Made by a program: the position numbers and the translations under genes. The notes beneath the pieces were generated by a model. That model saw nothing but the letters and a program-made list of their open reading frames with translations. It had not been told where the DNA came from and ran no database searches. Below are positions 8,263 through 49,664 of a DNA stretch of 57,219 bases, piece after piece. Each line of letters opens with the position of its first letter. The stretch's first letter is position 1. Source of the DNA: Bacillota bacterium (GTDB taxonomy: Bacteria; Bacillota; UBA4882; UBA10575); the NCBI GenBank assembly GCA_012735135.1, contig JAAYHY010000042.1:1-57219 (forward strand), read 5' to 3'.

Positions 8263-9789
8263 ATGAAGACAATGCGACGCAGGATCTTATCCGGATTAAT
8301 CCTGACTTTGGTGTTGATGATTAGCGGCTCAATTGAGGCCGGATTTCTTCCCCCGGTGACCGAAGCGGTGATCTATCCCGACGGGGTGGCTTTTTTGGTG
8401 CGGAAAGGGGAGACCGTTTTAGAAAAGGGCGAGTGTGTGCTTGAGCTGCTCCCCCCGGCGCTGAACGGTAGCTTAAGAGTCTTCTCGGACGATCCGGGTT
8501 TGGAATTGGAACAAGTCGTCGCCTACCGGGAGGAGGTGGCACAGGAAAAACCCCTGGGCAGCCTGGAGGAGCTTTTCCGGGAAAATACCAATAAACCTTT
8601 ACAATTGATGGTCAACGGCGAGTTGGTTGGCGGGGTGCTCAAAGGCTTTCTGGAACCCTCTTTTTTAGTGCTGACGGTTACCCATCCCAATGGGGTCAGC
8701 ACCGATGAGATCTACCCCCTTGAGGCCATCGATTCATACCATTTTTTGGCCCCGGTTGCTTTAGAGAAAACAGAGATCGGCTATGCAGGGAAATTAAGGG
8801 TTCGTTTCCGGGAACCGGCGGTGCAGAAAGGCGCCTATCCCGTGGGGATCAGTTACCTTCAGACCGGCCTTTCCTGGTTCCCCGAATACATTGTGAACCT
8901 TGATTCGGAGCAAAGCGGCGTTCTTTCCTATTCCGGCGTGGTCTGTAATGAGGCGGCCGACCTGACTAATACCACTGTTTACCTGGTGGAAAAGGGAGCG
9001 CAGTTTTCGCCCGAACTCTCCCCACTGGTCTTCTTCCCGACGGACCAAGGCTATGTGGCGAAACGGGCCGAGCTTAGCGCGACGGGTCTCCGGGTGGGAG
9101 AGAGTATGGCTTATGCGCCTAATACCTCTGTGGTCGACGCCTCTTCTTTGATCATGTATAAACATAATAATGCGGTGAACTTGAAAAAAGGGGAAAGAAT
9201 TCAACTCCCCCTCTTCCGCGGCGCCGTGCGGGTGGAACCCCTTTATCAGGTCCGACTCTCCCGGACCCTTTTCAGCCAGGAGGTGGCGGTGGAGCCGGTT
9301 TGGAAAGTATACCGGGTTTATAATAACTCCTCCATCCCCTGGATCGAGGGGCGGGTGCTGCTCATGATGAGGGACCGGCCGTTGGGCGCGGGCGAATTCC
9401 CCTCCATCGCCATCAACCAGAGCGGTGATATCCGGGTGATGACGGAACCGGAGATCCGGGTTCAGGCCAGCGAGGTTGAATTTGAACGAGTCCAGGGTTC
9501 CCTGGTTTATAAAGAGCAAGAATATGCCTTTATCCGGGTGCGTGGGGAGATTACGGTGGAAAACACCAAAAATAGCCAGGTTAAATTGAAGGTTACCCAC
9601 CAAGTCCCCGGGGAAGTTCTCGCCATCGGGGAAGGTGGTTCCGCGGTGAAAAAGGCGGTCTTCCAAACCGGGCTGAATCCCACTTCCGAATTGAATTGGG
9701 AGGTTACAATTTGGCCCCAGAGCCAAAGTAAGTTGACTTATACCTACCAAACTTATATCCCGCTCAACGACAACGGGCTGGTTAAATAA
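8263..9789 (+). CDS. Secreted DUF4139-like beta-rich protein, function unknown
   Basis: A 508-residue protein. ATG 8263 has GGGGTGAT a few bases upstream; ATG 8242 in the same frame is an alternative. The first about 26 residues (positive start, ILSGLILTLVLM core, small residues) form a Sec signal peptide. The rest is beta-rich without membrane helices. The segment ISYLQTGLSWFPEYIVNL near residue 200 and the C-terminal motif-poor beta region resemble DUF4139/MuiA-like proteins, but the similarity is weak. It follows dtd by 92 bp and precedes tRNA-Leu. The likely location is outside the cytoplasmic membrane; no biochemical role can be given. Confidence 0.6.
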   Translation: MKTMRRRILSGLILTLVLMISGSIEAGFLPPVTEAVIYPDGVAFLVRKGETVLEKGECVLELLPPALNGSLRVFSDDPGLELEQVVAYREEVAQEKPLGSLEELFRENTNKPLQLMVNGELVGGVLKGFLEPSFLVLTVTHPNGVSTDEIYPLEAIDSYHFLAPVALEKTEIGYAGKLRVRFREPAVQKGAYPVGISYLQTGLSWFPEYIVNLDSEQSGVLSYSGVVCNEAADLTNTTVYLVEKGAQFSPELSPLVFFPTDQGYVAKRAELSATGLRVGESMAYAPNTSVVDASSLIMYKHNNAVNLKKGERIQLPLFRGAVRVEPLYQVRLSRTLFSQEVAVEPVWKVYRVYNNSSIPWIEGRVLLMMRDRPLGAGEFPSIAINQSGDIRVMTEPEIRVQASEVEFERVQGSLVYKEQEYAFIRVRGEITVENTKNSQVKLKVTHQVPGEVLAIGEGGSAVKKAVFQTGLNPTSELNWEVTIWPQSQSKLTYTYQTYIPLNDNGLVK

Positions 9790-38624: not shown

Positions 38625-39950
38625 ATGATGAAAAAAATAGCCTTCATTGGGGCTGGTAGCTTTGGCTTTACCAGAGATCTGGTCCGCGATATTCTTTCCT
38701 TTCCCGCTTTGGCCGACAGTACTTTGGCACTAATGGATATTGATCAGGAGCGACTAGCTTTTATCAAAGAAGCGGTGGATAAGATCGTCGCCGCCGGGAA
38801 TTATCCGGCTAAGGTAGTGGCCACCACCGACCGGGTGGAAGCCCTCAAAGATGCGGACGGGGTAGTTTGTACCATTTTGGTTGGTGGCGTTGATGTCTGG
38901 CGCCATGATATCGAAATCCCTAAAAAGTACGGGGTAGATATTAATGTGGGGGATACCCGGGGACCCGCCGGTATTTTCCGCGCCTTAAGAACAATCCCGG
39001 TGATGCTTGATATTTGCCGTGATATTGAAAGATATTGTCCGGAGGCGATCTTTCTAAATTATACTAACCCCATGGCCATGCTCTGCCGGGCGATGCAAGA
39101 AAAGAGCAAGGTTAAGGTAACCGGTCTTTGCCACAGTGTGCAGGGAACCGCAAGCATGTTGGCGCGGTGGATCGGCGCGCCCATGGAGGAGATTACCTAT
39201 TTGTGCGCCGGGATTAACCACCAGGCTTGGTACCTTCAGTATAAATGGAACGGCAAAGATGCTTACCCCCTGATTCGGGAAGCAATCAAGCGACCGGAGA
39301 TTTACAACGAGGAACAAGTGCGCAACGAAATGTTTTTGCATTTGGATTATTATGTGACCGAATCAAGCGGACATAACTCCGAGTATAATGCCTGGTTTCG
39401 CAAACGCCCTGATTTAATCGAGAAATATTGCACCCACGGGACTGGCTGGAATCCGGGGCATCATGCCTATATTTTGAATGAGTATCGCCGCATGGAACAT
39501 ACATGGAAGGATGAGATTAAGGCGTGGTTGGCGAAGGATCAGCTCAACCTTGAACGGGGACAAGAATATGCGGACAGCATCTTTAATGCGGTCTTTGGTG
39601 ACGGTACCGTCTTTGGGTTTAACGGCTATCTGCGTAATTTCGGCCTGATTGACAACCTGCCGGAAGGTTGCTGCGTGGAGGTGCCTGTGATCGCTTCCCG
39701 CCGTGGCCTTGACCCGCTTCATGTCGGCCCCCTCCCCGAACAGCTGGCTATTTTAAATAATATCAGTGCCCGTTGTGAGGAAATGGCGGTGGAAGGGGCC
39801 TTAACCGGGGATCCGCGCAAAATCTTCCATGCCATCTGTTATGATCCATTAACCTCAGCCGTTTTAAGTTTGGCCGAGATCAAGACAATGGTCGATGAGA
39901 TGTTTAAGGTTAATGAAAAATGGTTGCCCCAGTTCAAGCATTTTAACTGA
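38625..39950 (+). CDS. GH4 family glycosidase (alpha-galactosidase/alpha-glycuronidase group)
   Basis: An NAD- and divalent-metal-dependent glycosidase of 441 residues. The Rossmann motif [13 protein letters not shown] is near residue 7, NYTNPMA near residue 148, and the metal motif GLCHSVQGT near residue 167; the CHSV form marks the subgroup acting on non-phosphorylated alpha-galactosides or alpha-uronides, not 6-phosphoglucosides. AGINHQAW near residue 195 fits. It precedes the sensor and transporter genes and probably cleaves the imported sugar in the cytoplasm. ATG 38625 follows GGGGGTGG; ATG 38628 is equally possible. Confidence 0.9.
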
Positions 39951-40066
39951 GGAAACCTTAGTTGCCGATCGATAAAACTATGATGCCGGAATAATCGCTA
40001 CTTGCTGTTCTTTGGGCAGCCTTTGATGTTGATGTAACCAGAACAGGAAATAGCACTTTTTTTGCT

Positions 40067-40148: not shown

Positions 40149-41966
40149 TTGGCCAGAAGAAAACAGATAACTGGTTTGCTCGAGCGTTTTTTTACGAGCG
40201 TACAAGGGACCTTGATTATATATTTTGTCACGATTGCGGTTATCCCCACCTTTTTGTTGGGGTTGATCACATACTCTACCTTCTCCCGGATCATCAACGA
40301 CAAGGTTCAAATCTATGTTGAACAAATGATTATTAAGGTGAAGGAGAATATTGAATACTACTTCCGGGACTTGCAGAGTCTGGCCTATATGATCTCGGTC
40401 AATAACGACCTGCTTACTGCTTTGCGGGAAGAGACATTCTTAGATAAATGGAAAGAGATTAATTACGAAAACAAGTTAAAACATTTTCTGGCCAGCCTCA
40501 CCAGCACGCGGGCGGAAGTCAGGGGTATTTACGTAATATCCGAGGATAAAAGGAGGATTTACACCAGCGGGCCTCCGATTCTCATCAGTTATTTGCAGGA
40601 CTACGACTGGTACCAAGGGATTCTCAATTCCGATGATCATATCTACATTACTGACATTCATGAAGACGATTATGCCGGCGCCCTTTATGCCAATACCTCG
40701 AAGGTTGTCACCTATGCGCAACGCATCACGGATCTGGACGGACGGAAGCTCGGATGGATTTTGATCGATCTTAACTATAGTTTTGTCACCAAAATGCTGG
40801 AAAAGATGGACTTATGGGAGCAAGGCCAAATTACGGTCTTGGACTCGAAAGGAAAACTGATTTTTGGTGACCAAGCGGCGGCCGCCAAGTATCAGGAGAG
40901 TAACTTCCGCCAATTATACCTTCGGGATTGGGGCAGCCAGTTACAGAAGATCCAGGGCAAGACGGAGCTGGTTGTCTATCAAGCGGTCTCTTTTTGCGGC
41001 TGGAAGATAATCTTCTCCATCGACTATGACATTTTGCAGAAAGAAAACACGACGATTCGTAATGTAATTCTGGTGCTCTCTATTATCCTGCTCGGCGGAG
41101 CCATCTATCTGTCTGTGCATTTTTCCAGAAAGGTATCGAACCCGGTCCAAATCCTTTGTAACTCCATGAAAGAGGTGGAGGAAGGAAATCTGGAAGTCTC
41201 CATCCGGATTAGGAGTATGAAAGAGTTTAACCGGTTAGCGGCCAGTTTCAACCGGATGGTGGAACAGATCCGTAATTTGATGGACAACATTTATGAAGTC
41301 CAGCAAAAAAAGAGGCAAGCCGAGTTAAATGCGCTTCAAGCCCAGATCAATCCGCATTTTCTCTATAATACCCTCGATTCTTTGCGTTGGCTGGCTAAGC
41401 TTCATAATATTGAAGAGATCGCCAAGATCATATCGGCCCTCGAGAGTCTGTTACGGGCGAGTATCAGTAAGACCAATGATCTGATCCCCATTGGCGAGGA
41501 GATTGAAAACGTCCGTAATTATCTGGCCATCCAGTCATTTCGCTATGGGAACAATTTTTCTGTCACCTATATGATCGATCCGGCCGTAACCAGCTACTTG
41601 ACACCGCGCTTGATTTTACAGCCGATTGTCGAGAATGCGATTTATCATGGGGTAGGCAACATCGTTGGCGGTGAGATCGAGATCGGAGTCCATTCGGACA
41701 GTGCCGGAATCATCTTTGAAGTGCTGGATAATGGACCCGGGATCGCCCCGGAAAAGCTTAAAGCAATAACAGAAGGCAAAAATAAAAACAAAGACCGCTT
41801 CAGCGGTTTTGGGTTAATGAATGTCGAGGAACGGATCAGACTTTATTTTGATCAGGATTACGAGTTTGCGATTAACAACCGGGACCCCCGGGGAACCCGG
41901 GTTTTAATCAGGATTCCCCGGATTCGTAAATTTAAAGAAAGGAGCGTCGCCAATTGGGTAAAGTAA
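40149..41966 (+). CDS. yesM: YesM-type sensor histidine kinase
   Basis: A 605-residue membrane kinase. Order: helix near residues 20-42, extracytoplasmic sensor region (about 43-295, Cache-like), helix near 298-317, HAMP linker, then a His_kinase domain with QAQINPHFLYNTLDSLRW near residue 400 (phosphorylated His) and an HATPase domain with VENAIYHGV and the LDNGPGIAP motif. Start TTG 40149 with AAAGGA about 12 nt upstream. The yesN-type regulator starts inside its 3' end. It probably senses extracellular sugar, perhaps via the lipoprotein encoded two genes on. Confidence 0.93.
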   Translation: MARRKQITGLLERFFTSVQGTLIIYFVTIAVIPTFLLGLITYSTFSRIINDKVQIYVEQMIIKVKENIEYYFRDLQSLAYMISVNNDLLTALREETFLDKWKEINYENKLKHFLASLTSTRAEVRGIYVISEDKRRIYTSGPPILISYLQDYDWYQGILNSDDHIYITDIHEDDYAGALYANTSKVVTYAQRITDLDGRKLGWILIDLNYSFVTKMLEKMDLWEQGQITVLDSKGKLIFGDQAAAAKYQESNFRQLYLRDWGSQLQKIQGKTELVVYQAVSFCGWKIIFSIDYDILQKENTTIRNVILVLSIILLGGAIYLSVHFSRKVSNPVQILCNSMKEVEEGNLEVSIRIRSMKEFNRLAASFNRMVEQIRNLMDNIYEVQQKKRQAELNALQAQINPHFLYNTLDSLRWLAKLHNIEEIAKIISALESLLRASISKTNDLIPIGEEIENVRNYLAIQSFRYGNNFSVTYMIDPAVTSYLTPRLILQPIVENAIYHGVGNIVGGEIEIGVHSDSAGIIFEVLDNGPGIAPEKLKAITEGKNKNKDRFSGFGLMNVEERIRLYFDQDYEFAINNRDPRGTRVLIRIPRIRKFKERSVANWVK

Positions 41967-43573
41967 TGATCGTTGACGACGAGCTGTTGGTACGGGTTGG
42001 TTTGCGCTCCACCATCTCCTGGCAGAAATATGATTTTACGATTGTTGCCGATGCCGCCAACGGGCAAGAGGCGATTAAAAAATTTGCCGCCACCGACCCG
42101 GATATCCTCATTACCGACATCCGCATGCCAGGAATGGACGGTATTGAGTTGATCAAGATCTTGAAGCAAAAAAAACCCAAGTTGAAGACGATCATTCTTA
42201 CCAATTACGATGATTTTGCTTACACCCAAGAGGCACTGAAATTGGGAGCAGATGAATATCTGCGCAAGTCGACTTTGGACAACCAAACCCTAATCCCCAT
42301 TTTGGAACGGTTGTGGCGGAAAATCCAACAGGAGTCGGTCGAAGACCAGAGATTACAGCAGTTGCAAAAGCAAGCCTCATTGGGGGTCTTTTTACTCAAA
42401 AAACATTTTGTGGAGAGTCTAATCGGCGATGAATTGGATGAACAAAGATATCAAGAGTTTTTACAGGATTTGGGGTTAAATTGGCAGGAAAACAATTGGC
42501 AGCTCGTCCTCATGAAAGGAGAAAACGGAGCGGAGAACGCTTCCCGCTCCGGCCTTCACCCCTTAAACCTGATTGAAGAGATCACAGATGAAGCCGGGGC
42601 GTTGGTTGCCGAAGGGTCGAGCCCGGCTGAGTGGATCCTGATCTATAGTTTCCCGCAAAAGGAAGCCGGTTATTATCAAAAAAAGATCATCCCCTTTAAC
42701 GTCCGGCAGGTTCAAACCTGCCTTCAGCAATATCTGCAGCTCAAAACCACCGCTGTTTTCGGAACGGTCCTCACCTGTTATAAGCAGTTGCCGGCGGAAT
42801 ATGGAAAGGTGCGGGAGTATATGATGTATCGCTTTTTCTGGCCGGAAAAGAAGATGATCTTTCCGGAAGATATTCCCTGCGACACGAAGGATTATTGTTT
42901 GCCGGAAAGTAACGATCCGAATCTATCCGCTCTGATCAGGATGGGCGAGGAGGAGGAAGTTACGAAGGCCCTGGAGTGCCTATTTAAGAAGGTGACTCAA
43001 AGTGTCTCTCCTTTCCTTTTACGCCAGTTGTGCCAGGAGCTTTATGGGGAAATAGCCCGGCAGTGCCGGGAAGCCGGGATTCGGTTATCAGAGATCCTGA
43101 AGGAAGAAGAGCAATACTCATCCCATCTCGAGAACTTTCCGTCTATTCCGGCGATCGAAGATTGGTTCGTGGAGAAGTTTAATCATTTGATCGCGAAGAT
43201 GAAGAGCACCAGCTTAATGAATTACTCCCCGTCGATTCGGGAAGCGCTAATCTACATAAAGGAAAATTATAAGAATAAAAACTTGAGCCTTTCTTTAGTG
43301 GCCAACCAGGTCGGATTAAGCAAAAATCATTTTTGCACACGCTTTAAGGAAGAGACGGGATATAACTTTGTGGATTTTTTACATGTAACCAGGAGCGAAC
43401 AGGCTTGTGAGTTGTTACTCCATTCAGAGCTGCCTATCGCCGAAATCGCAGAGAGCGTCGGGTACATAGATCCCAAGTATTTTACCAAGGTATTCCAAAA
43501 ACATACCGGCTATTTACCGACAACATACAGGAAATTATTCCAAAAAGGTGGGCACCGGCATGAGATGGTCTAA
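41954..43573 (+). CDS. yesN: YesN-type response regulator with AraC DNA-binding domain
   Basis: A 539-residue regulator. The receiver domain has MIVDDE at the start, the phospho-Asp in ITDIRMPGMDG near residue 55, and the conserved Lys in EYLRKS near residue 105. A helical middle region of about 300 residues follows, then two AraC helix-turn-helix motifs (LVANQVGLSKNHFCTRFKEETG; IAEIAESVGYIDPKYFTKVFQK). TTG 41954 follows GAAAGGAG and overlaps yesM by 13 nt. It likely activates the adjacent transporter genes. Confidence 0.94.
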   Translation: MGKVMIVDDELLVRVGLRSTISWQKYDFTIVADAANGQEAIKKFAATDPDILITDIRMPGMDGIELIKILKQKKPKLKTIILTNYDDFAYTQEALKLGADEYLRKSTLDNQTLIPILERLWRKIQQESVEDQRLQQLQKQASLGVFLLKKHFVESLIGDELDEQRYQEFLQDLGLNWQENNWQLVLMKGENGAENASRSGLHPLNLIEEITDEAGALVAEGSSPAEWILIYSFPQKEAGYYQKKIIPFNVRQVQTCLQQYLQLKTTAVFGTVLTCYKQLPAEYGKVREYMMYRFFWPEKKMIFPEDIPCDTKDYCLPESNDPNLSALIRMGEEEEVTKALECLFKKVTQSVSPFLLRQLCQELYGEIARQCREAGIRLSEILKEEEQYSSHLENFPSIPAIEDWFVEKFNHLIAKMKSTSLMNYSPSIREALIYIKENYKNKNLSLSLVANQVGLSKNHFCTRFKEETGYNFVDFLHVTRSEQACELLLHSELPIAEIAESVGYIDPKYFTKVFQKHTGYLPTTYRKLFQKGGHRHEMV

Positions 43574-44828
43574 GTTTACCATTGTACTCTGCGGGTCATT
43601 GTTTCTGATCGGGTGTTTTAATGTTCACCGCCATGATCCCCAGGAAGAGAAATATGAGACGATCCATCTTTTAGGCACGGTGGGGATCCATGAATTGATC
43701 GTGGAACTGATTGAGGATGAATTGGCCGAGGCCGGGATCAAGGTCGAAAAAAACTTTTTTTATTGGGATACCTATCTGGCCAAAGCCCGTCAAGCCATCT
43801 TGAACGAGACCGGGGAGTATGATGTGATTTTGGGCCCCAATTCCGTGTTGTCCCGGTTCATCCGGAGCGGGAAACTGATTGCCCTAAACGATCTAGCCGC
43901 CCAAGCCGGCCTGCACCGGGATGATCTCTACCCGCAAATCCTGAACAGTATAATCTTCCAGGACAAATGGTATTCCCTTCCCTATTTGGCCGATGTTTTG
44001 ATTTACATTTACCGGCAAGATTTATTTGCCCGGATGGGCATCGATCCTCCCCAAAATATCGCTGAGATGTATGAAATTGCCCGGCGGATGACGACGGATT
44101 CCGTCTACGGTCTGGCCTTTCCCGCCAATCCTGATGACCCCGTAACCTCCATCTGGAGTTATTTTCTCTGGTCACACGGGGGCGATTATTTTACCGGTGA
44201 TTGGCGGCCAATGATCAATTCCCCGCAAAGTGTGGCGGCAACCCGCATCTACTTTTTAATCCTTGAGAACTGTGCGCCGGCGACGGTGGCGACTTGGAAA
44301 ACAGAGGAGGTTGTGGATAGTTTCATCGGGGGGAACCTGGCCGCGATGATCCTTTGGTCCAGTACGATACCGGTCATCGAGAACAGCGAAAAAAAGGGGA
44401 GCGGGGAAGTTGGGGGTGCGCCCTTACCGCCCGGCCCGACCAAGAACGCGATTTCTCCCTTTGCCAGTTGGGGACTGGTGATCCCACGGAGCGCCAAGCA
44501 TATCATCGCGGCTAAAAAATTTGCCCTAACTCTTGTATCAAATGAAACCTTGAGCACCATTGCGGATCTGGGAATGGCGCCTACTCCCTTGCCTAAGCTG
44601 AACCGCGAATCTGCGCAGAAGAATCCGGAAAAACCATTCGCCATTGCCACCGCGGCACTGGAGAAAGCCAAAGAGTGGCCGCTGCCCTTCCTGGAAGCCA
44701 ATCAGTATGTCCCGATCATTGGTTCGGTATTAAATGATATTCTGATGGGCGCGGATGCCGAAACCACGCTGGAAGAAGCAAATAAACAGATTGCCCTGTT
44801 GATCGCCGGGAGCAATGGCCGGCATTAA
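43560..44828 (+). CDS. Substrate-binding-like lipoprotein of the sensor unit
   Basis: A 422-residue family-1 extracellular sugar-binding protein. ATG 43560 has AAAGGTGG 7 nt upstream and overlaps yesN by 14 nt. The lipobox LIGC near residues 15-18 predicts a lipid anchor. The body has the two-lobed SBP pattern (YDVILGPNSVLSRFI; WYSLPYLADVLIYIYRQDLF). Because it is embedded in the yesMN pair and not in the permease block, it may be a sensing component that presents ligand to YesM. Alternatively it is a second importer-binding protein. Confidence 0.87.
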   Translation: MRWSKFTIVLCGSLFLIGCFNVHRHDPQEEKYETIHLLGTVGIHELIVELIEDELAEAGIKVEKNFFYWDTYLAKARQAILNETGEYDVILGPNSVLSRFIRSGKLIALNDLAAQAGLHRDDLYPQILNSIIFQDKWYSLPYLADVLIYIYRQDLFARMGIDPPQNIAEMYEIARRMTTDSVYGLAFPANPDDPVTSIWSYFLWSHGGDYFTGDWRPMINSPQSVAATRIYFLILENCAPATVATWKTEEVVDSFIGGNLAAMILWSSTIPVIENSEKKGSGEVGGAPLPPGPTKNAISPFASWGLVIPRSAKHIIAAKKFALTLVSNETLSTIADLGMAPTPLPKLNRESAQKNPEKPFAIATAALEKAKEWPLPFLEANQYVPIIGSVLNDILMGADAETTLEEANKQIALLIAGSNGRH

Positions 44829-44986
44829 TGGGGTCTTCTTTTATAAGAATATAGTCTACCTCCGCCGGAATATTCCCCACCTCCTTTTGGAACTCTCCTC
44901 GATTATTCATTGTTCTTTTACAATTTCAGAATGACAAAGAAAAAGAGCGGAATTTTAACTCTCTCCTTCTATTCATATATTTGTTA

Positions 44987-45084: not shown

Positions 45085-46398
45085 GTGAAAAGAGTTACTT
45101 GTATTTTTTCTGTAATCCTGATTACCTTGGTCTTAATCTCAACTGTATGGGCGGCGCCCAAAGTTACCCTACGCTATGCCTTATGGGACACTAACCAACT
45201 TCCGGCCATGGAAGCTTCAATTAAGGAGTTTATGAAACAAAACCCCAACATTGAAGTAATCATCGAACTGACCGAATGGAATGATTACTGGACGAAGATG
45301 ACCACCGGGGTTGCCGCCCGTACTTTGCCTGATGTTTTCTGGGGCCATTTGGCGTATTTCTCCGGTCTCGTCTCCAAAGGAGCTTTGATGGACTTAACCC
45401 CGTATATCCAAAGGGATAAGTTGGATTTAAGCATCTATTATCAACCCCTATTGGAAAACTGGAAGTATCAAGGAAAACAATATGGAATTCCCAAAGACTG
45501 GGATACCATTTGCATCATGTATAACAAAGACGCTTTTGATAAAGCAGGCATCCCCTATCCCAGCGCTGATTGGAGTTGGAACCCGAAGGACGGCGGGGAA
45601 TTCGTCCAGGTTCTCCAGAAGTTGACGATCGACCAAAATGGAAAGAACTGCACCGAAAAGGGCTTTGATAAAAACAGAGTAGTCCAGTATGGAATCGGTG
45701 GGTTGGCCGCCAGTGAAATGCAAACCGGTTGGCTCAACTTTATCTGGATGAACGGTGGTCAGGGGATTCTTGACAAGCCCTATGGCAATAAATTCATCCT
45801 CGATGACCCAAAAGCTGTTGAAGCCATGCAGTTCTACGCCGACCTGGTGAGCAAATACGGGGTGGCACCCACTCCTGAAATGCAAGGCACAAGCGCGTCC
45901 GGGTGGGAATTATTCGTCGCCGGACGGGTGGCGACCATTCCCGTAGGGTCATGGCAGCTTTCCGCAGCACGGGATAATCTCACTTTCAACTGGGATGTCA
46001 TTCCTCTGCCGAAAGGGCCGGCGGGACGGTATAGTTGCTTCAATGGACTGGCGCATAATATTTACGCCAGAACAAAGCATCCGGAAGAAGCCTGGAAACT
46101 TGCGAAATGGATGGATGGCTATGAATCCCAGAAGATCATCTCCGAGTATGGCGTAGTCTTCCCGGCCATCCCCTCGCTGATCGATGTTTATCTGGAAGCG
46201 ACCAAGGAAAAGGGCCCGGACCACATCAAATATTTCATCGATGCCACAGACCAGACCGGACAATGGCCGATGCACGTCAACTGGGCACAAATCTTCGACA
46301 TTATTCAGCGGGAATATGAAATGGCGATCTCCGGTCATTATTCGGCGAAAGAAGCGGTAGAATTAATCAAAGACCAGGTTGGGCCATTCCTTCGCTAA
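45085..46398 (+). CDS. Sugar ABC transporter substrate-binding protein
   Basis: A 437-residue family-1 sugar-binding protein (MalE/UgpB type). GTG 45085 follows AAAGGAGGTAAA, one of the best ribosome sites in the window. The first about 24 residues form a Sec signal peptide ending near VWAAP; unusually for a Gram-positive, there is no lipobox cysteine. The mature part includes PDVFWGHLAYF, GIPKDWDTICIMYNK and GWELFVAGRVATIPVGSW, typical of the family. It precedes the two permeases, with an intervening terminator. Confidence 0.93.
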   Translation: MKRVTCIFSVILITLVLISTVWAAPKVTLRYALWDTNQLPAMEASIKEFMKQNPNIEVIIELTEWNDYWTKMTTGVAARTLPDVFWGHLAYFSGLVSKGALMDLTPYIQRDKLDLSIYYQPLLENWKYQGKQYGIPKDWDTICIMYNKDAFDKAGIPYPSADWSWNPKDGGEFVQVLQKLTIDQNGKNCTEKGFDKNRVVQYGIGGLAASEMQTGWLNFIWMNGGQGILDKPYGNKFILDDPKAVEAMQFYADLVSKYGVAPTPEMQGTSASGWELFVAGRVATIPVGSWQLSAARDNLTFNWDVIPLPKGPAGRYSCFNGLAHNIYARTKHPEEAWKLAKWMDGYESQKIISEYGVVFPAIPSLIDVYLEATKEKGPDHIKYFIDATDQTGQWPMHVNWAQIFDIIQREYEMAISGHYSAKEAVELIKDQVGPFLR

Positions 46399-46477: not shown

Positions 46478-47407
46478 ATGGGAACAACAATACAGCCGGT
46501 AACTCATGTATCTATGCCAAAAAGAGCGCCAAAAAAGCGGTGGCGGCAATGGGTAACGGGTTACTCAATGATTCTACCAAACTTTATAGGTTTTTTCATC
46601 TTTATGTTGATTCCAATCATTGCTACGATCGGATTGGGTTTTACCGAGTGGGATCTGGTCAATGACCCGCGGTGGGTTGGTCTTGCCAATTATAAACACT
46701 TGTTTAAAGACCGCATTTTCTGGCTTTCATTCAAAAAAACCATCTGGTTCACCCTGATCAATGTGCCGGTTCAGAGTTTTCTCGCCCTTTTAATCGCGGT
46801 ATTGCTTAATCGAAAATTAAAGGCTTTAAACTTGTTCCGTACTTTATTCATTATCCCCTGGGTTTGCATGTCGGTGGCAGTGGGTCTGACCTGGACCTGG
46901 CTTTTTAATACCCAATTTGGCTATATCAATCATGTGTTGACGAGTTTGGGATTGGAAAGGATTGGTTGGTTAACTTCGGATAAATTAGCCTTGTATGCAG
47001 TAATTTTCGTAAACATCTGGCAATATCTGGGTTGGCACATCATTCTGCTTCTGGCGGGTTTACAAATTGTGCCTCAGGAGTTATATGAGGCCGCCACCGT
47101 TGATGGGGCCAATAACTGGATGAAATTTTGGAAGATCACGATCCCGATGATTAGCCCTTTTTTCTTCTTTGATTTAGTGGTTAACATGATCATGACCTTA
47201 CAGATCTTTGATCTTCCTTTCGCCATGACCAACGGTGGCCCGGGCAACGCGACCCGCGTCTTTAATCTGTATCTATACCAAAAAGGGTTCTCCTTTCTCC
47301 TAATGGGAGAAGCTTGTTCCATGGGGGTTGTCCTCTTTGTCTTGATTATGGTCGCTACTTTTCTTGTCTTTAAGTTTCTTGGGAGCCGGGTCAATTATGA
47401 AATGTAA
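46478..47407 (+). CDS. Sugar ABC transporter permease (MalF type)
   Basis: A 309-residue integral membrane protein with about six helices. The cytoplasmic EAA loop (YEAATVDGANNWMKFWKITIPMI) near residue 206 is the contact site for an ATPase. The ATG at 46478 follows GAAAGGTGAGG. It is paired with the next permease and the preceding binding protein. No ATPase gene is encoded, so a shared MsmK/MsiK-type ATPase from elsewhere is expected. Confidence 0.95.
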   Translation: MGTTIQPVTHVSMPKRAPKKRWRQWVTGYSMILPNFIGFFIFMLIPIIATIGLGFTEWDLVNDPRWVGLANYKHLFKDRIFWLSFKKTIWFTLINVPVQSFLALLIAVLLNRKLKALNLFRTLFIIPWVCMSVAVGLTWTWLFNTQFGYINHVLTSLGLERIGWLTSDKLALYAVIFVNIWQYLGWHIILLLAGLQIVPQELYEAATVDGANNWMKFWKITIPMISPFFFFDLVVNMIMTLQIFDLPFAMTNGGPGNATRVFNLYLYQKGFSFLLMGEACSMGVVLFVLIMVATFLVFKFLGSRVNYEM

Positions 47408-47449: not shown

Positions 47450-48277
47450 ATGGAAAAAACTATTTCAGCGAAAAGACTTCTCTTGTATCTCTTGATTATT
47501 GGCATCCTTTTTTTGTACCTTTTCCCCCTCTTCTGGCAGCTTTCCACCTCGTTGAAGGAGAGCGACGAGGTCTTTTCCGGTTATAACCTCATTCCGAAGA
47601 AAGTAACTTGGAAAAACTATAGGATTGCCTGGTCCCAATTTAACGTTAAACGATACCTGCTCAATACCATTTTAGTTTCAAGCATTATTATGCTGGGAAC
47701 ACTAATCTGCTGTTCAATGGCGGGATTTGCTTTTGGGCAATTACAATTTCCGGGGCGGGACTTTTTGTTCTTCCTTTACCTAGGAACCATGATGGTGCCC
47801 GGGGCAGTGACGCTAATTCCATCCTATTATATTATTTTAAGGTTAAACATGGCCAACACCTTTGCCGGGTTGATCCTGCCCTTCTTCTTCGGTAGTGCTT
47901 TTGGTACCTTTCTCCTCCGTCAGTTTTATATGACCCTCCCGAAGGATCTCTTTGAAGCAGCGACCATCGATGGGGCAGGCTATTTCCAAATCTGGTTGAA
48001 GGTTATGTTTCCCCTCAGTAAACCGGCGGTTGCCACCTTGGGCGTGATGACCCTGGTCCAACATTGGAACAGTCTGCTCTGGCCCTTAGTAATTACGCAA
48101 AGTCCCGCGCTTAAGGTTCTGGCGGTTGGGCTCTCGGATTTCCGTCTCTTCCGGAATATACAATGGAACTCCTTAATGGCGGCGGTCATGATCGCGATTC
48201 TCCCGATGTTGTTGATCCTCTTTTTTGCCCAGAAATACTTTGTCAAGGGTATTCAGTTTTCCGGGATCAACCGATAA
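47450..48277 (+). CDS. Sugar ABC transporter permease (MalG type)
   Basis: A 275-residue integral membrane protein, second subunit of the permease pair. About six helices; the EAA motif is FEAATIDGAGYFQIWLKVMFPLSKP near residue 167. The ATG at 47450 follows AAGGAGAG. It ends 2 nt before the end of the convergent AraC gene, leaving no room for a separate terminator between them. The ending FVKGIQFSGINR resembles the conserved C-terminus of MalG-type permeases. Confidence 0.95.
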   Translation: MEKTISAKRLLLYLLIIGILFLYLFPLFWQLSTSLKESDEVFSGYNLIPKKVTWKNYRIAWSQFNVKRYLLNTILVSSIIMLGTLICCSMAGFAFGQLQFPGRDFLFFLYLGTMMVPGAVTLIPSYYIILRLNMANTFAGLILPFFFGSAFGTFLLRQFYMTLPKDLFEAATIDGAGYFQIWLKVMFPLSKPAVATLGVMTLVQHWNSLLWPLVITQSPALKVLAVGLSDFRLFRNIQWNSLMAAVMIAILPMLLILFFAQKYFVKGIQFSGINR

Positions 48278-48279
48278 AT

Positions 48280-49143
48280 TCATCCCTTTTCCTTATGCGT
48301 TAGAAGGTGGTTCTGCCGAAATTGGCTGGGGGATAACCCTTTTACTTTTTTGAAGATTTTGGAGAAGGCCAGGGGATCGTTATAACCGACCGATCGGGCC
48401 ACATCGCCAATGGAGAGTAAAGGGTTGCGTAAAAAATCACAGGCCCTTTCGATGCGAAATTGGATCAGATAATCTTGGGGCCCGATCTGGAGTCTGTTTT
48501 TAAAGAGAACGGTAAGATAACTTCGGCTTAAACCCAGGCTGGCTGCGATCATTTTGATATTGATTGGGCGAGAATAGTTGGTTTTTATAAACTCCAGGGC
48601 TTTGCGGATATAAACATCCTGGAGATCGCCGTTGGAGAGCGTGGTCCGGTGGGGGTCCGCGTTTTCAATCATTTCTGAGATGGCAATGTATAATAAACCC
48701 TGCAAATGCAGGGTTTTACCGTAGTAGTGCCTTTTGTCATTAGGCTCCCCGGCAATTTGGACCAGTTTTAACAGGAAAGCATCGAGCTTATTCCCCGTCC
48801 GTTTAGTCAAAATCGGATTTTCCTTTGAAAAGCCGGCGGCATGGAGATAGGTTTCTACTTTCAGACCGTTAAAACCGACCCACACATAGTGCCAGGGATT
48901 GGCCCGGTCGGCCTCATAGTAAGTGATGATACCGGGATAAATAAGAAAACCCTGTCCTTCGTGGAGCGAATAGCAACGGTTATCAACAAAAAAGCAACCC
49001 TTGCCGCTTAAAATATAATGGAAGAGATAATGATCGCGTACTGCCGGGCCGTAGGAGTGCCCGGGTTTACAGGCTTCACTTCCACAATGGTAAACATTTA
49101 AATCGGTAGTAAACTGTTCGTTGGTAAAAAAGATATCACGCAT
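48280..49143 (-). CDS. AraC-family transcriptional regulator
   Basis: A regulator of about 287 residues. ATG 49143 is preferred because GGTGATGG lies just upstream; a TTG at 49203 that overlaps the rrf2 stop by 4 nt would add 20 residues. The N-terminal cupin sensing domain shows HYILSGKGCFFVDN and EGQGFLIYPG; the C-terminus has two helix-turn-helix motifs (IAASLGLSRSYLTVLFKNRL; DVARSVGYNDPLAFSKIFKK). Its position beside the permeases suggests it responds to the imported sugar and controls part of this island, in addition to YesMN. Confidence 0.92.
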   Translation of the reverse strand: MRDIFFTNEQFTTDLNVYHCGSEACKPGHSYGPAVRDHYLFHYILSGKGCFFVDNRCYSLHEGQGFLIYPGIITYYEADRANPWHYVWVGFNGLKVETYLHAAGFSKENPILTKRTGNKLDAFLLKLVQIAGEPNDKRHYYGKTLHLQGLLYIAISEMIENADPHRTTLSNGDLQDVYIRKALEFIKTNYSRPINIKMIAASLGLSRSYLTVLFKNRLQIGPQDYLIQFRIERACDFLRNPLLSIGDVARSVGYNDPLAFSKIFKKVKGLSPSQFRQNHLLTHKEKG

Positions 49144-49199
49144 TCCATCACCAACCCGGATTCTCTTTTCCCTGTCACCCAAGGGGAACAGCGCTGTGC

Positions 49200-49664
49200 T
49201 CAATTCCCCCGCTCATTCTTCCCTGTGGTCCCCCGGCCCGCCTCCGGGGGCGTTTTTTCTTTGGTCACCAAATCCCGGAGGGTTGTGGAGAACATGACTT
49301 CTTCCATCTTCGCGGAGAGCTCTTTCCAGAAAGGCATGGTCAGACAAGAATCCATCTTCTCACAATCAAGGGGATTTCCGATTTTGGCGCAATTGGCGAG
49401 GGTTAAAGGACCCTCCAGCGCCTGTAAGACTTCGCCGACGGTGATCTGGTCGGCCGGCCGCGCCAGGGTATAACCGCCGTAAGAACCGCGGACCGCATTA
49501 ACTAAACCGGCCTTGCGCAAAAGCGCAAAGACCTGTTCCAAATAGGATTCGGAGATACCCTGCCGCTCGGCAATCTCACGTAAAGGGACGGGGTTTTCTT
49601 GCGCGTATATCACCAGATCAGCCATGGAACGTAAGCCGTATCTTCCTTTTGTTGAGATAAGCAA
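49200..49664 (-). CDS. Rrf2/IscR-type transcriptional regulator
   Basis: A 154-residue winged-helix regulator. TTG 49664 has GAAAGGAG about 8 nt upstream. MLISTKGRYGLR at the start and SESYLEQVFALLRKAGLV near residue 37 are typical. Three cysteines (CAKIGNPLDCEKMDSC, near residues 92-107) match the spacing of Fe-S-ligating Rrf2 proteins. A likely autoregulatory site lies upstream at 49683-49704. No isc/suf genes are nearby. Its last codon touches the longest form of the AraC gene. Confidence 0.92.
   Translation of the reverse strand: MLISTKGRYGLRSMADLVIYAQENPVPLREIAERQGISESYLEQVFALLRKAGLVNAVRGSYGGYTLARPADQITVGEVLQALEGPLTLANCAKIGNPLDCEKMDSCLTMPFWKELSAKMEEVMFSTTLRDLVTKEKTPPEAGRGTTGKNERGN

Follow-up and report, generated by a model that had tools for sequence, protein, structure and literature searches.

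The DNA analyzed here, called the window, is a whole stretch of 57,219 nt (positions 1 to 57,219, forward strand) of contig JAAYHY010000042.1, assembly GCA_012735135.1, from a Bacillota bacterium of the GTDB lineage Bacteria; Bacillota; UBA4882; UBA10575. Within it, positions 40149–44828 encode a YesM-type sensor kinase and a YesN-type response regulator, followed by a substrate-binding protein (SBP) of lipoprotein type that we call LIPO. The initial annotation had proposed that this lipoprotein is a dedicated sensor which presents sugar to the kinase, and that the kinase then turns on a neighboring transporter.

Genes and proteins of the locus

The features of the locus are as follows.

40149–41966, plus strand: YesM-type sensor kinase (YesM), TTG start; Pfam domains dCache_1, HAMP, His_kinase and HATPase_c
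41954–43573, plus strand: YesN-type response regulator (YesN), TTG start; Pfam receiver and AraC-type helix-turn-helix domains
43560–44828, plus strand: LIPO, SBP_bac_1 binding lipoprotein, proposed dedicated sensor; start given by the open reading frame tool, GTG 43548
44863–44884, plus strand: operator candidate, distal repeat, core CGGAATATT at 44866–44874; conserved between LIPO and SBP2 in five genomes
44945–44966, plus strand: operator candidate, proximal repeat, core CGGAATTTT at 44948–44956; conserved in five genomes
45085–46398, plus strand: SBP2, transport binding protein without lipobox (Pfam SBP_bac_1/8)
46478–47407, plus strand: PermA, UgpA-like permease (Pfam BPD_transp_1; NCBIfam UgpA-type, 137 bits, below the cut-off)
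47450–48277, plus strand: PermB, UgpE-like permease (Pfam BPD_transp_1; NCBIfam UgpE-type, 159 bits, below the cut-off)
38625–39950, plus strand: GH4 alpha-galactosidase, PRK15076 subfamily (Pfam, 192.9 and 159.3 bits; NCBIfam NF011657 alpha-galactosidase, 530.6 bits, above the cut-off of 486)
48280–49203, minus strand: AraC-type one-component regulator (Pfam AraC_binding and helix-turn-helix), convergent with PermB

The overlaps of 13–14 nt that had been reported between the kinase, regulator and lipoprotein genes were confirmed from the open reading frames. YesM and YesN overlap by 13 nt, and YesN and LIPO (counted from its ATG) by 14 nt, all on the same strand; the sizes are identical in genomes G006 and G012. 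The ATG at 43560 is the better start for LIPO, because the GTG at 43548 falls inside the ribosome-binding-site-like sequence AAAGGTGG, which precedes the LIPO ATG in the window as well as in G006 and G012. By overlap and strand, a binding-protein gene is grouped here with genes for a YesM/LytS-type kinase and a YesN/AraC regulator in what appears to be an operon. After a gap of 256 nt follow SBP2, PermA and PermB, so the earlier observation of a separate binding protein ahead of the permeases also stands.

LIPO matches the Pfam family SBP_bac_1 with 112.1 bits and carries, by pattern reading, the lipobox LIGC; on these two features it is predicted to be a family-1 binding lipoprotein. The lipobox pattern is present in all five LIPO orthologs listed and in none of five SBP2 orthologs. 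At E up to 0.001 Pfam gave no match of LIPO to Peripla_BP_4, its families being SBP_bac_1 and SBP_bac_8. The AlphaFold2 model of LIPO has a mean predicted local distance difference test (pLDDT) score of 93.8 and resembles maltose/trehalose and other sugar-binding proteins in Foldseek. VIA-align placed it on 4rya with Z 44.6 and a root mean square deviation (rmsd) of 3.2 over 388 aligned residues, and on 1eu8 with Z 44.2 and rmsd 2.8 over 383. Judged by this model, the fold of LIPO would be closest to disaccharide-binding proteins.

The ectodomain of YesM was modeled with a mean pLDDT of 82.8. In Foldseek it resembles the dCache/tandem-Cache domains of chemoreceptors and histidine kinases, and in the model a long N-terminal helix, two short helices and two five-stranded sheets follow one another.

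Conservation of the gene order

Orthologs of LIPO, 48–79% identical, are found in seven of 29 genomes of the class, the window's own included. Six of these, again with its own, were recovered at E up to 1e-40; the seventh, G024, is split by contig ends. Lipoprotein homologs standing always beside permeases and never beside yesMN had been named as the finding that would speak against a sensor. Instead, LIPO directly follows YesN in each of the seven genomes, across two families (f1 and f5), and because the order recurs in all of them it is not due to chance. In f5 the two genes are at most 66 nt apart, without overlap (in L052 YesN ends at 9095 and LIPO starts at 9162). The initial annotation had also called for a survey of the yesM-yesN-lipoprotein order in loci without permeases. 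The order itself is kept in seven of seven, but SBP2 and the permeases come after LIPO wherever the contig continues, with the exception of G005.

SBP2 orthologs (at least 67% identical) occur in five of the 29 genomes, adjoin PermA in all five, and are accompanied by LIPO in all five. An assessment of modularity by occurrence gave no result, as SBP2 and LIPO co-occur in the class genomes. YesM orthologs are present in ten of the 29 genomes, weaker matches at 21–25% identity being paralogs. Three of the ten lack LIPO: the G001 contig stops just after YesN, the G004 contig stops inside a split YesM, and G007 has a shortened locus. In G004 (L129:1-1342) YesM lies in two frames with a break near residues 108–175. 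In G007 (L128:6321-7484) the N-terminal part of YesM is fused to the end of PermB and the middle of the locus is missing, while the AraC gene stays beside it.

Four LIPO copies (G000, G006, G021 and G028) run into neither a contig end nor a junction and are full-length open frames; those of G012 and G024 are cut by contig ends. In G005 (L053:1430-2141) the first half of LIPO joins, with a change of frame, the final 28 residues of SBP2, and the permeases are intact; this junction is either a deletion between two SBP genes or a misassembly.

Between f1 and f5, LIPO is 48.8–49.5% identical, YesN 47–48% and YesM 58–59%; the values are 67–73% for SBP2 and 68–72% for the permeases. LIPO therefore diverges with the regulator and not with the transporter. 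A quick tree was made of 55 of the 74 gathered SBPs; most of those omitted came from short loci or were truncated at contig ends. In this tree the five LIPO orthologs group in a single clade (Shimodaira-Hasegawa-like approximate likelihood ratio test 100), well away from the clade of the five SBP2 orthologs, so LIPO is no recent duplicate of SBP2. Standing beside PermA and distant from LIPO in the tree, SBP2 appears to be the different binding protein that serves the permeases.

Operator candidate and sugar class

Two direct repeats with the core CGKAATWTT are found in all five LIPO-SBP2 gaps that were aligned. They start 184–220 and 112–137 nt 5' of SBP2, with a spacing of 70–83 bp. The gap itself measures 202–456 nt in the four loci where it is complete, and YesM, YesN and LIPO overlap or lie within 66 nt of each other. 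Allowing up to one mismatch, the f1 motif CGGAATWTT gave seven matches in 1.13 kb of f5 gaps (the G024 stretch including the end of LIPO), six of them being the paired repeats, against a background, in loci at least 8 kb long, of 0.37 per kb and strand; this f1-to-f5 comparison was not blind, the alignment having been seen before the motif was defined.

Upstream of YesM, GH4 or GH36, one of 18 stretches scored with the profile, that of the window at 39984, and this match is not conserved. Self-control of YesM through it was rejected as chance, as nothing scored 5' of YesM in six other f1 and three f5 genomes. The stretches upstream of GH4 contained no match to the motif, and both GH36 upstream stretches were short (67 and 38 nt).

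The two repeats are likely an operator for YesN, as far as sequence conservation indicates. The natural reading of the arrangement is that YesN would act on SBP2-PermA-PermB and that YesM-YesN-LIPO would form a separate unit. A conserved two-repeat operator candidate before SBP2 supports a sensor that turns on the transporter.

The convergent AraC-type gene (48280–49203) is a possible second regulator of the transporter. It is found beside this locus in f1 only (L049, L053 and L128), abuts PermB in G000, G006 and G005, and is kept by the shortened G007 locus; AraC-type regulation is thus possible in f1. That it controls the transporter while YesM, YesN and LIPO control something else is very improbable, however. 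Family f5 has the repeats before SBP2 too, and there L052 and L055 show a GH36 gene and no AraC-labelled gene by PermB.

The class of sugar may be read from the neighboring enzymes. GH4 lies beside YesM in three f1 LIPO loci (G000, G006 and G012) and also on the YesM contigs of G001, G004 and G005. In f5 a GH36 gene follows PermB in L052 and L055, with Melibiase domain scores of 571 bits and, on a shortened frame, 274 bits; the G028 contig stops before the corresponding position. An alpha-galactosidase therefore adjoins five LIPO loci, GH4 in three and GH36 in two. Two unrelated alpha-galactosidases by one sensor-transporter module suggest that the sensed sugar is an alpha-galactoside of plant type. 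No described alpha-galactoside YesMN system was found in the open-licence literature; the accessible part of a Lactiplantibacillus plantarum paper mentions yesNM and alpha-galactosidases, but separately (PMC8704671).

Sensor kinases with binding proteins

Sensor kinases activated by SBPs are said, in the accessible part of one article, to be widespread, with about ten characterised (PMC9602780). That some kinases read their ligand through a binding protein had been put forward as background to this locus and is known experimentally for CuaDSR (PMC10384115 and, from the part accessible, PMC5663094). CuaD of Ruminiclostridium cellulolyticum is a second SBP with a lipoprotein signal, encoded in an operon with a kinase and a YesN-type regulator; it binds cellobiose tightly, interacts in a two-hybrid test with the CuaS ectodomain whether cellobiose is present or not, and improves CuaSR signalling (PMC10384115). 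The cuaDSR genes are constitutive, the separate transporter unit cuaABC-cbpA is induced, and the region that CuaR recognises lies upstream of cuaA, the gene for the transport SBP (PMC10384115; accessible part of PMC5663094). In the model of the CuaS ectodomain a long N-terminal helix bears two sheets of five strands each, and two cap helices form the principal contact for CuaD (PMC10384115).

In both systems the genes for a sensor kinase and a YesN/AraC regulator are grouped, here in a predicted operon, with that for a second family-1 binding lipoprotein. Each also has another SBP for transport, encoded with the permeases in what is, for this locus, a putative unit of its own, and an intracellular sugar-breakdown gene nearby. 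The ectodomains of CuaS and YesM are alike in the order of their elements, descriptions and not coordinates having been compared. They differ in that the CuaS ectodomain was reported without a predicted domain, whereas YesM scores dCache_1. The gene order is SBP-kinase-regulator there and kinase-regulator-SBP in this locus, and the ligand is cellobiose there and probably an alpha-galactoside here. The comparison with CuaDSR is one of gene arrangement and published descriptions.

In Clostridium beijerinckii, XylFII-LytS-YesN consists of a dedicated binding protein, a LytS/YesM-type kinase and a YesN regulator that control a sugar transporter. The readout of a binding protein through a LytS/YesM-type kinase and YesN is what is proposed for LIPO. 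XylFII, in contrast, is of the Peripla_BP_4 kind, LIPO is SBP_bac_1, and the chains 5xsd, 5xsj and 5xss are absent from the list of matches to LIPO. XylFII-LytS chains were not named in the Foldseek and VIA-align lists for LIPO, an absence that carries no evidential weight. The AraPST trio of Geobacillus stearothermophilus (sugar-binding protein, kinase and regulator) controls a separate transporter; its ligand is L-arabinose and its SBP gene stands first, both unlike this locus. The AraPST genes are mentioned in passing in the accessible part of one paper (PMC4194401), and the discussion of the CuaD study names, besides its own, a two-SBP system in each of C. beijerinckii and G. stearothermophilus (PMC10384115). 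SBP genes adjoining YesM-YesN are pointed out, in the part accessible, in a lipoproteome study of Parageobacillus thermoglucosidasius (PMC13068155). Systems of this kind have thus been described before in a few other bacteria, and the present locus is a sound further example with a different gene order.

LIPO, YesM and YesN probably form a CuaDSR-like three-component alpha-galactoside sensor that switches on SBP2-PermA-PermB. LIPO, anchored on the outer face of the inner membrane, would bind, in its two-lobed cleft, an alpha-galactoside (melibiose or raffinose, for example) and would dock onto the dCache ectodomain of YesM. YesM would phosphorylate YesN, which would bind both direct repeats before SBP2 and turn on SBP2-PermA-PermB, with SBP2 as a separate free periplasmic protein feeding the permeases. 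The sequence itself shows the order and overlaps of the genes, the lipobox, the conservation of the trio, the repeats and the alpha-galactosidase genes nearby, along with the predicted folds. We infer which sugar is the ligand, that LIPO contacts YesM, that YesN binds the repeats and in which direction control runs. The locus is a clean candidate: its ligand class and its operator can be predicted, and there are orthologs to compare it with.

Several observations count against such a sensor. LIPO was matched at E up to 1e-22 in 11 of the 398 genomes of a phylum sample, with 14 places among the candidates scored (up to four per genome, so that weaker relatives were missed). Three of these places hold LIPO orthologs and 11 hold distant homologs at 24–29% identity, all 11 of which adjoin permease genes; YesM-YesN is present as well beside one of them (L098, in G072). 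Because the distant homologs all have permeases alongside, LIPO stems from a transport family. L098, L131 and L133 have the order YesM-YesN-SBP-PermA-PermB, with a single binding protein in the position of LIPO. In view of these operons and the permease-side homologs, a place after YesN alone is no proof of a sensor. LIPO and SBP2 were never found apart where both sides could be read, which leaves a purely sensory LIPO module inseparable by occurrence. One of the seven LIPO copies (G005) is shortened by its junction. In the LIPO-SBP2 gap no terminator was found and no promoter pattern on the plus strand, so read-through is possible. With its dCache_1 domain YesM could sense alone, as small ligands are held directly by many dCache domains of solved structure, judging by the titles of the Foldseek matches. 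Finally, lipidation is not a general mark of sensors, as a kinase-side SBP elsewhere in the genome (L069) has no lipobox; the idea that every kinase-side binding protein is lipidated was rejected on this ground. The dedicated sensor first proposed is partly supported. LIPO forms a clade apart from the transport SBPs and follows YesN in every ortholog, but the distant homologs and the single-SBP operons weigh against it. Distant relatives of SBP2 (31–37%) were found with permeases and without the LIPO-YesM-YesN trio in the stretches taken, two of the four contigs being short.

The main rival explanation, which we regard as rather unlikely, draws on the transport ancestry, the single-SBP operons and the shared loci of LIPO and SBP2. 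LIPO would be a second transport SBP for the same permeases, the two forming a tandem pair with a wider sugar range, and YesM would sense by its dCache domain. Yet LIPO is tied to YesN by an overlap or short gap, whereas SBP2 lies beyond the 202–456 nt gap with its own conserved repeats. The divergence of LIPO is paced like that of YesN and unlike that of SBP2, the two SBPs are distant in the tree, and the lipobox is found in LIPO and not in SBP2.

That YesM senses directly and LIPO is vestigial or accessory, for example a kinase brake or a sensitivity booster only, seems to us improbable. CuaS and CuaR without CuaD still respond to cellobiose, although less efficiently (PMC10384115), and to this may be added the direct ligand binding of many dCache domains, the fast divergence of LIPO and its broken copy in G005. 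Against it, the four uncut copies are full-length with many invariant aromatic residues across 49% identity, the LIPO of the window gives a confident model, and a vestigial gene would hardly be retained in two families.

Contigs C131, C91, C83 and C20 of the same genome carry Omp85 family matches; two of these are clear, at 100 and 49 bits. On that evidence the organism likely has an outer membrane and thus a periplasm in which SBPs could be free. A more elaborate version of the alpha-galactoside sensor, which we hold to be unlikely, is that in this probable outer-membrane bacterium YesM is a coincidence detector of its own dCache pocket and docked, sugar-loaded LIPO, the sensor SBP being anchored and the transport SBP free. 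If so, import could not deplete the signalling pool.

The genome contains ten YesM-type kinase (His_kinase) genes, whose surroundings were viewed as far as the contigs reach. Four of the ten directly adjoin a binding-protein gene without permeases after it (this locus, L069, L068 and L072). These kinase-side proteins fall into three or more kinds, among them LIPO, the L069 type and Peripla_BP_4. It therefore looks as if kinases commonly gain their specificity through binding proteins, which were recruited to this role more than once. A single origin of all kinase-side SBP_bac_1 proteins was unsupported: LIPO and the L069 type are separate clades in the quick tree (two label changes), so kinase-side SBPs probably arose at least twice. 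The lipobox pattern occurs in three (LIPO, L079 and L137) of the 22 SBP_bac_1 proteins of this genome with a readable start, out of 23 in all; the L143 protein, lipobox-like by eye, would be a fourth.

At L069:4884-12980 (contig C67) the SBP_bac_1 gene ends 21 nt before YesM, YesN is divergent, and PermA-PermB with another SBP lie beyond. Relatives of the L069-type SBP were found in L106, L110 and L146, with a further permease-side SBP in L110 and L146; in L106 it falls outside the stretch taken. At L068:2570-5394 (C85) and L072:6178-8715 (C83) a Peripla_BP_4 gene adjoins YesM-YesN, and both of these proteins match the PDB chains 5xsd, 5xsj and 5xss. The first two we take to be XylFII chains. 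5XSS is named XylFII in the literature (PMC9601137). L068 has a single additional Peripla_BP_4 gene; its contig is short and showed no recognisable transporter gene, RbsC-type permeases not having been searched for. In L072 the kinase is split in two frames, and two further Peripla_BP_4 genes and an ATP-binding cassette (ABC) ATPase come after YesN.

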